Positions 29,225 to 42,380 of a DNA stretch of 64,000 nucleotides are shown here, in pieces. Source of the stretch: Ignavibacteriota bacterium (GTDB lineage Bacteria; Bacteroidota; Ignavibacteria; Kapaibacteriales; UBA2268); NCBI GenBank assembly GCA_020437395.1, contig JAGQWJ010000011.1:1-64000 (forward strand). The letters are read 5' to 3'. The number at the start of each line of letters is the position of its first letter. Position 1 is the first letter of the stretch. Position numbers and translations under genes: made by a program. The notes below the pieces were generated by a model. That model saw nothing but the letters and a program-made list of their open reading frames with translations, was not told the DNA's origin and searched no databases.

Positions 29225-30214
29225 TTACTTTATCCATCCATTGCTTTTGTACCATTCGAAAGTTATATCAAATCCCTCTTTTAAACTATACTTTTGAGCA
29301 TAACCAAAGTCTCTTTTTGCTTTCTCAACTGAGCAAGTCCAATACTTTTGGATAAAATCAATACTTTTTTCCGAATCGAATACGGGTGGTTTACCAGTGA
29401 ATTTTCCTATTAATCCATTTGCATTCCCCATAACTTTAACCAATAAATGAGGGATACGTAATTTTAAGATTTTATCTCTACCTGCTGAAGCTCCCATAGT
29501 GTCGATGATTTCTGTCCAATTATAATATTTCTCAGAAGCTATAAAATAAGATTCTCCAATTGTATTATCTGATAATGCAGCTTCAACAATACCTCTAGTC
29601 AAATCCATAGAACTAACTAAACTAACATATTTATCATCGAATCCAATTAAAGTCCCAATACCTTTCTGCGCAGCTTGAAACATAGGTAATGTAGCTGTAT
29701 CTCGTGGTCCATAGACTGCAGGTGGCCTAACTATTGTAATTGGTAAAATATCCTGACTGGCTTTCAAATAATCTTCCGCCATTTTTTTACTTTTACCGTA
29801 AGAAGTCAGCGGGTTTTGTGCCTGCTCTTCAGTAGAAATTTCATCTAGGGAAACAGATGGTCCAACAGCAGTTTGACTTGAAACATGCAGAAACCGCTGT
29901 AAATTAGGAGCTGTATATTTTGCTGCTTCGAATAGGTTTTTTGTTCCTGTTAGATTTGCTCTAACAAAATCTTCCATTGAGTTTGCGGCAGTTAAACCAG
30001 CCGAATGAAAAATTATATCTACATCTTTTACTACTTCCTTCAGTGATTCAATATCCGATAAGGATGCCTCTACAAGACTATAGCCCTTGTTTTCAACCCA
30101 TCTTAAATTGCTGGTTTTTCTTACTATACATATTACATCTGCACCTTTCTCTTTCATCTGGTCAGCTATATGACTACCAATGAATCCCGTTGCACCTGTT
30201 ACTAAAACTTTCAT
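29225..30214 (-). CDS. NAD(P)-dependent epimerase/dehydratase (extended SDR)
   Basis: A 329-aa Rossmann-fold oxidoreductase. The cofactor motif VTGATGFIGSHIADQM is at the N-terminus, catalytic YGKSKKMAEDYL is at about residue 140, and VRPPAVYGPRDTAT follows. It resembles 3-beta-hydroxysteroid dehydrogenase or NAD-dependent sugar epimerase types; the substrate is unknown. It is the first gene of a pair with the acylase (no gap), so they may act on one pathway, though this is only inferred from position. Confidence 0.93.
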   Translation of the reverse strand: MKVLVTGATGFIGSHIADQMKEKGADVICIVRKTSNLRWVENKGYSLVEASLSDIESLKEVVKDVDIIFHSAGLTAANSMEDFVRANLTGTKNLFEAAKYTAPNLQRFLHVSSQTAVGPSVSLDEISTEEQAQNPLTSYGKSKKMAEDYLKASQDILPITIVRPPAVYGPRDTATLPMFQAAQKGIGTLIGFDDKYVSLVSSMDLTRGIVEAALSDNTIGESYFIASEKYYNWTEIIDTMGASAGRDKILKLRIPHLLVKVMGNANGLIGKFTGKPPVFDSEKSIDFIQKYWTCSVEKAKRDFGYAQKYSLKEGFDITFEWYKSNGWIK

Positions 30215-40960: not shown

Positions 40961-41347
40961 ATGAAACAGTTTTGGGGAACAGGTCGAAGAAAGACTTCTG
41001 TTGCGTCTGTAAGAATTACACCTGGTAAGGGTGAATTCATTATAAATGACAAAGATGTCGATCAGTTTATTGACCTCCAAAGTAATAAAGAAAAAATACT
41101 TAAACCGTTGGTAGTTACTGAACTAAAAGGGCAGTATAATATTGTAGCCAACGTTAAAGGTGGCGGATTGACTGGACAAACGGGTGCTATCCAATTAGGA
41201 TTGGCTCGTGCCATTATTGATATGGATCCTGAATTGAAGCAAAAATTGAAAGATGCGGACTTGCTAACTAGAGATTCTAGAATGGTCGAACGTAAGAAAT
41301 ACGGTCGCAAAAAAGCAAGAAAGAAATTCCAATTCTCGAAACGTTAA
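40961..41347 (+). CDS. rpsI: 30S ribosomal protein S9
   Basis: A 128-aa S9. The N-terminus is FWGTGRRKTSVASVRITPG, the middle is VKGGGLTGQTGAIQLGLARAI, and the C-terminal KKYGRKKARKKFQFSKR has the conserved basic tail that reaches the P-site tRNA. Length is normal. It lies downstream of rplM and is separated from rpsB by a structured 108-bp gap. Confidence 0.98.
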   Translation: MKQFWGTGRRKTSVASVRITPGKGEFIINDKDVDQFIDLQSNKEKILKPLVVTELKGQYNIVANVKGGGLTGQTGAIQLGLARAIIDMDPELKQKLKDADLLTRDSRMVERKKYGRKKARKKFQFSKR

Positions 41348-41368
41348 AAGAAATTTATTTATCAATCA

Positions 41369-41423
41369 TGCAAGAAAGTACTGTGTGTTGCATATAGAGA
41401 TATGTACCAAGATCTTTCTTGCA
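41369..41423 (+). promoter_or_regulatory. Structured RNA element in front of rpsB
   Basis: TGCAAGAAAG (41369-41378) and CTTTCTTGCA (41414-41423) form a perfect 10-bp stem. Inside, CATAT-AGAG-ATATG forms a second hairpin. No T-run follows, so it is not a terminator. It lies 32 bp before the rpsB ATG, where S2 autoregulatory leaders are found in other phyla. Confidence 0.65.
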
Positions 41424-41455
41424 GTAGTTAAAACACACAAAATTAAAGGATATAC

Positions 41456-42337
41456 ATGAAACACTATGTAGAAATAGAGCAGCTACTAAAAGCAGGTGCT
41501 CATTTTGGTCACTTGACTAGACGTTGGAACCCAGCTATGGAAGATTTCATCTTCAACGAAAGAAATGGGATCCATATTATAGACCTTCGTAAAACTCAAG
41601 TCTTATTAACTCTTGCAAGAGATGCTGCTTACGATATTGCACTGGGCGGTAGAAATATTCTTTTTGTTGGGACTAAGAGCCAGGCAAAAGATTTATTGCA
41701 AGATGCAGCTAAAAAAGCAGGCGTAAACTATGTCTCTGAGAGATGGTTAGGTGGTATGTTGACGAATTTTGCAACTATCAGAAAATCAATTAAAAGACTT
41801 TCTACTATTGATAAAATGTCAATAGATGGTACTTACGAAAAAATCACGAAGAAAGAGAGATTACTTTTCGATAGAGAAAGAGAAAAGTTAAGACGTATAT
41901 TCGGTGGTATCGAAAATATGACACGATTGCCGGGTGCAATCTTTATAGTAGATACAAAAAAGGAACACCTTGCTATAAAAGAAGCTCAGAATTTGAATAT
42001 TCCTGTAATTGCTATCGTTGATACAAATTCAAATCCTCATGAAGTTGATTTCCCTATTCCTGCTAATGATGATTCGAGAAATACTATCGAATTGATTCTT
42101 GGTGTTATAACTGATGCTTTAGTAGAAGGTTATACAGTTGCTAGATCAAAAAGTGCTGAACTTGCTGCTGAATCAGAGAGAGTTAGCAAAGAGAATGATG
42201 ATTTGGGTGATGAGCAAACAAAAGTTAAAAGAAAACTCAGAGAAAGAAAAAAAGGCACTTCGGACAAGCCAAAAAAGAAAACTGAAAGCTCAGAGAATGA
42301 AAGTGAAGCTGAAGTTAAGCAAGACTCAGCTAAATAA
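41456..42337 (+). CDS. rpsB: 30S ribosomal protein S2
   Basis: A 293-aa S2. Signatures are LLKAGAHFGHLTRRWNPAM, FIFNERNGIHIIDLRKTQ, ILFVGTKSQAKDLLQDAA, SERWLGGMLTNFATI and PVIAIVDTNSNPHEVDFPIPAND. It is longer than E. coli S2 (241 aa) because of a Lys/Glu-rich tail of about 55 residues (about 240-293). A stem-loop leader precedes it and a terminator follows; tsf is next. Confidence 0.98.
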   Translation: MKHYVEIEQLLKAGAHFGHLTRRWNPAMEDFIFNERNGIHIIDLRKTQVLLTLARDAAYDIALGGRNILFVGTKSQAKDLLQDAAKKAGVNYVSERWLGGMLTNFATIRKSIKRLSTIDKMSIDGTYEKITKKERLLFDREREKLRRIFGGIENMTRLPGAIFIVDTKKEHLAIKEAQNLNIPVIAIVDTNSNPHEVDFPIPANDDSRNTIELILGVITDALVEGYTVARSKSAELAAESERVSKENDDLGDEQTKVKRKLRERKKGTSDKPKKKTESSENESEAEVKQDSAK

Positions 42338-42348
42338 TGAATTTCAAC

Positions 42349-42380
42349 CAAGAGCATCTTAAAAAAGGATGCTCTTTTTA
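42349..42380 (+). terminator. Rho-independent terminator after rpsB
   Basis: AGAGCATC (42351-42358), 9-base loop, GATGCTCT (42368-42375) and T-run. It lies between rpsB and tsf, so it may lower rather than stop expression of tsf. Confidence 0.88.

Follow-up and report, generated by a model that had tools for sequence, protein, structure and literature searches.

The question raised by this locus is whether the long hairpin between rpsI and rpsB, in the 64,000-nt stretch of DNA analysed here (the window), is a regulatory leader through which ribosomal protein S2 controls its own gene. An earlier note, made from these letters, had proposed as much. On the comparisons given below the element at 41365-41444 is probably (roughly 0.8) a cis-acting leader of rpsB within an rplM-rpsI-rpsB run, through which S2 (uS2) would repress its own synthesis.

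The hairpin was found as the earlier note had described it. The perfect 10-bp stem at 41369-41423 can be read directly (TGCAAGAAAG/CTTTCTTGCA), the inner hairpin is present, and the stem end at 41423 lies 32 nt from the ATG at 41456, in a gap of 108 nt between the two genes. A T-run 3' of the stem is absent, as had been stated, and an intrinsic terminator or attenuator is ruled out on this ground. A promoter was looked for in the rpsI-rpsB gap and was not found. The stem is real but is only a part of the element; the second strand of a pseudoknot had been missed. The loop strand UGUGUGUU forms a perfect 8-bp match with AACACACA downstream of the stem, giving an H-type pseudoknot with a duplex energy of -8.7 kcal/mol, and the 3' end of this pseudoknot is 5 nt upstream of the rpsB Shine-Dalgarno (SD) sequence. 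The anti-SD CCTCC is present in the 16S tail of the window genome. The features are listed in Table 1.

Table 1. Coordinates of the rpsB leader and its neighbouring genes in the window.
Feature	Position	Strand	Basis or remark
rpsI (S9), upstream neighbour, same direction as rpsB	40961-41347	+	ORF call
Complete leader, span matched by covariance models R1/R2/R3	41365-41444	+	
P1 5' strand TGCAAGAAAG	41369-41378	+	perfect complement of 41414-41423
Putative P2 5' strand GTAC	41378-41381	+	candidate partner GTAC at about 41404-41407, from sequence
Pseudoknot 5' strand TGTGTGTT (= loop strand UGUGUGUU)	41382-41389	+	8-bp complement of 41432-41439
P3 hairpin CATAT-AGAG-ATATG	41391-41404	+	sequence
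Internal-loop strand CAAGAT	41408-41413	+	aligned to family consensus AAGAUGAA
P1 3' strand CTTTCTTGCA	41414-41423	+	10-bp perfect pairing with 41369-41378
Pseudoknot 3' strand AACACACA	41432-41439	+	complement of 41382-41389
SD-like AAAGGA of rpsB	41445-41450	+	5 nt after pseudoknot, 5 nt before ATG
rpsB, gene for S2, presumably both regulator and target	41456-42337	+	ORF call and homologues

Taken singly, the hairpin and the pseudoknot are only mildly unusual, with a chance of about 1-2% each: when the 108-nt gap was shuffled 2000 times, 19 of the shuffles contained a perfect inverted repeat 10 bp or longer, and an 8-bp pseudoknot complement arose in 2% of shuffles. The fold z-score of the leader region is -1.17, and minimum-energy folding by itself is misleading for this leader as it hides the pseudoknot. 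A generic or chance hairpin of an AT-rich intergenic region, or a dispersed repeat, might be suspected from the approximately 12 perfect 10-bp inverted repeats found in shuffled sequence of 64 kb, but the leader hairpin is single copy in the 2.9 Mb window genome and its position is conserved. This explanation is refuted by covariation across more than 70 leaders and is left with practically no probability. The reality of the leader is thus argued from conservation and covariation in relatives, and not from single-sequence odds.

Homologs of rpsB were recovered from 52 of the 54 genomes of the family (Candidatus Kapabacteria), and P1, the internal loop, P2, the pseudoknot strand and P3 are common to nearly all of them. 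The family consensus reads AUCAUG-P1-GGAUU-P2-UGUGUGG-P3-GAG-P2'-AAGAUGAA-P1'-CAGAAGU-AACACAA-(A)GGAG, and the unpaired nucleotides GGAUU, AAGAUGAA and CAGAAGU are kept. When 18 diverse relatives were aligned with MAFFT, with structure not used in fitting (alignment A1), 92.7% of cells were paired, compared to 72.7% in shuffles and 36-48% when the structure was slid (slid maximum 47.6%). Double-change cells numbered 86, against 26 in shuffles, and covariation was 0.618 (0.235 shuffled, at most 0.133 slid); these figures were not attained in any shuffle. RNAalifold independently arrived at the nested portion of this structure.

A larger alignment of 72 leaders (A3) was made in which the nested helices were fitted to the search model; the pseudoknot lies outside that model and its counts are therefore unfitted. 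Covariation was 0.738 (0.218 shuffled, at most 0.123 slid), there were 493 double-change cells compared to 146 in shuffles, and changes on both sides were seen in 22 of the 24 pairs and in each helix, with 98% of cells paired in P1 and 94% in both P2 and P3. The pseudoknot occurs as UGUGU/ACACA in 22 leaders and CCUGU/ACAGG in 13, in addition to UUUGU/ACAAA, UGGGU/ACCCA and GGUGU/ACACU. In sibling genomes P1 pairing is preserved through changes, for example from A-U to U-A, and P3 appears as CATAC/GTATG; P3 covaries in the family in both alignments, and P2 covaries strongly in the rest of the family (A1). A covariance check in relatives had been suggested by the earlier note, and the pairing came through it strongly in A1 and in the 72 leaders.

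The window's genus carries the most derived form in the family; the GGAUU loop strand is missing, and scores with the models are only 22-36 bits, compared to 40-90 bits for most relatives. Across its four genomes the genus shows no variation in the GUAC/GUAC pairing (P2) or in the pseudoknot, so neither gains covariation support within it, and the support for the pseudoknot is drawn from more distant relatives. Given the missing GGAUU and the low scores, ligand recognition could have changed in this genus.

Three covariance models (R1, R2 and R3) were grown stepwise from leaders, and only matches outside each training set were counted as independent. R1 alone was trained without the window's genus, which is included in the training alignments of R2 and R3, and the E-values are rough as they rest on short calibrations. 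All three models gave the leader as their best match in the window, with E = 0.0093 for R1, 8.7e-6 for R2 and 1e-4 for R3. There is also a weak second match at 30120-30200 on the minus strand (E about 0.15-0.3), which is probably due to chance.

A blind R1 scan of 247 genomes of the phylum yielded 30 with a match, one per genome, and all but three of these are from the same class, order or family as the window; rpsB was the next gene in 16 of 16 loci examined. With its strict filter, the R1 genome scan overlooked many true leaders and gave no match in the genome of the window, and the rpsB upstream regions were then fetched by protein and searched locally. R2 detected the leader in half of the protein-fetched loci (15/30), mostly from scan-negative genomes, and each of the 72 selected rpsB loci had exactly one model match, located 5' of rpsB. 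In another family of the same order, by-eye inspection picked out diverged rpsB leaders with a GUGGA/UCCAC-type pseudoknot (L159, L160, L161 and L164), which are too diverged for the models and have the same arrangement as in the family.

Models built on this lineage also recognise rpsB leaders far outside it. R2 detected Firmicutes leaders outside its training set (L149 at 2e-8, and L151, L145, L117, L144 and L119) as well as those of Balneolaceae (L087) and KSB1 (L095). R3, tested on loci kept out of its training, E. coli included, recovered rpsB leaders of Tepidibacter (2e-12), Balneolales, Gemmatimonadetes, Limosilactobacillus, Butyrivibrio, KSB1, Calditrichota and Thermochlorobacteriaceae. 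Among its held-out Firmicutes matches were L127 (2e-12), L153 (1e-9), L101 (1e-8) and L124 (6e-6). Held-out Chlorobi leaders were recovered by lineage-built models too. In E. coli K-12, R3 gave a weak match in register at the t44 position (18 bits, E = 0.03), and the link that this suggests between the Kapabacterial leader and t44 is marginal.

In the reverse direction, Rfam at gathering and relaxed thresholds gave no meaningful match in the window or its relatives. The 44-bit gathering threshold of the t44 model (RF00127) was not reached by the rpsB leader of the window or by those of its relatives, and the tested non-proteobacterial rpsB leaders went unrecognised by this model, for which the E. 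coli control scored 83.5 bits. Across the 54 family genomes it matched only a foreign rpsB contig in one assembly (G041), plus one chance-level match. That contig, in an assembly of the same genus, carries a second rpsB (G041:C60:2173-2930, L056) which is 51% identical and has a t44-like leader of 26.8 bits; it is probably contamination.

The rpsB motif of Meyer et al. (2009) precedes rpsB and has a long stem, a junction cap and a variable P3; it was described in most Alpha- and Gammaproteobacteria and in a few of the remaining Proteobacteria, in Cyanobacteria and in some Firmicutes (PMC2704228), a range that leaves out Kapabacteria and other Bacteroidota. The window element is alike in its site and its junction-capped long stem: it lies 5' of rpsB, has an internal-loop stem with a variable P3 and a pseudoknot to the 3' extension of P1, and its lineage-grown model recognises held-out Firmicutes leaders, although E. 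coli only at 0.03. It differs in its pseudoknot, UGUGU/ACACA in Kapabacteria and the 8 bp UGUGUGUU/AACACACA in the window, and in the loss of one internal-loop strand in the window's genus. The E. coli leader (t44) has the same topology, with P1, P2, a GGGGUG strand, P3 and a GGGG/CCCC pseudoknot, and its 3' GGAGGCAUAACCCC is comparable to GCAGAAGUAUAACACA, whereas its internal-loop sequences differ and its pseudoknot is farther upstream of the SD. By these likenesses the window element is placed as a divergent member of the S2 leader family, and not as Rfam t44 as modelled. The suggestion that it may be a lineage-specific form holds for the sequence (UGUGU/ACACA, and a genus without GGAUU) but not for the architecture, which it shares with the widespread rpsB motif. 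The kind of leader is therefore known, and what is new is its Kapabacterial form, which the standard RNA library does not annotate.

A different leader is known from the same operon in a related class. The L13 r-leader of Bacteroidia (Eckert et al. 2020) belongs to the rplM operon, with L13 as the likely ligand (PMC7247131); it shares the rplM-rpsI operon, sometimes with rpsB, but heads the operon and is not an S2 leader at rpsB. Directly upstream of rpsB, eight Bacteroidia loci (L094, L100, L103, L107, L178, L182, L183 and L186) have another conserved element, GTTTAG[CT]A[TC]C[TC]AAA - stem - GA..GTAAAC or similar, in which GUUUA/UAAAC is invariant. Neither the S2 leader models run there nor Rfam (four loci) matched this element, which is a candidate Bacteroidia-specific S2 leader.

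Which product acts on the leader has to be judged from its neighbours. With rpsI directly upstream and in the same order in 62 of the 72 leaders, a conserved leader that controls rpsB in response to something else (S1, an S1-S2 complex, S9 or translational coupling to rpsI) could be envisaged, the more so as the S2 site on the leader is putative and S2 in E. coli needs S1 for good repression (PMC10931766). The leader nonetheless tracks rpsB and not rpsI: it stays with rpsB in Firmicutes where rpsI is absent upstream (L111, L156 and L137), and in E. coli the gene upstream is map, on the opposite strand. As the leader persists at rpsB without rpsI, the ligand is more likely to be S2 than S9; among the products that all these contexts share, none but S2 is known to act on a leader of this type. 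Another ligand or trigger is accordingly rather improbable. Less probable again, and by a good way, is an mRNA processing or stability element (an RNase III or RNase E site, or a decay barrier) with no protein sensing. A long intercistronic stem lacking a T-run would suit such a role, but a stability hairpin has no need of a pseudoknot, of conserved unpaired GGAUU, AAGAUGAA and CAGAAGU or of a fixed closeness to the SD, and the element is retained where the upstream gene differs. Covariation, together with the leader staying with rpsB across phyla, argues for the S2 autoregulatory reading made in the earlier note.

The E. coli leader mediates repression of rpsB-tsf by surplus S2, helped by S1, but how S2 blocks initiation is described as unclear, since the ribosome binding site (RBS) lies outside the operator (PMC10931766). 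In Kapabacteria the 3' strand of the pseudoknot abuts the SD, and in many Ignavibacteria it overlaps it, as AACAGGAG with CCUGU (CCUGU/ACAGGag; CUCCUGU in L084), an overlap which supports SD occlusion as the mechanism. The most economical reading of the direction of effect is that S2 in excess over 30S subunits would bind the leader RNA and stabilise the pseudoknot, which would then exclude the 30S subunit from initiation at rpsB; output of S2, and perhaps of the downstream tsf, would fall, and translation of rplM and rpsI would be unaffected. The rpsB-tsf gap contains a terminator-like stem at 42350-42379 (AAGAGCATC/GATGCTCTT); its loop is 9 nt long, a T-run is present, and through it tsf could become uncoupled from rpsB.

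More tentatively, the S2 leader may be near-universal, with a pseudoknot that drifts in sequence and is fused with the SD in Ignavibacteria, such that S2 would close the RBS directly; this would supply the mechanism for E. coli, with the Kapabacterial form, a few nucleotides before the SD, as an intermediate.

The finding carries a classic autoregulatory RNA into a section of the Bacteroidota for which the RNA library has no annotation, and shows that some of the S2 leader family lies beyond the reach of the t44 model. Natural variants with the pseudoknot placed over the SD make the mechanism of S2 autoregulation directly testable.
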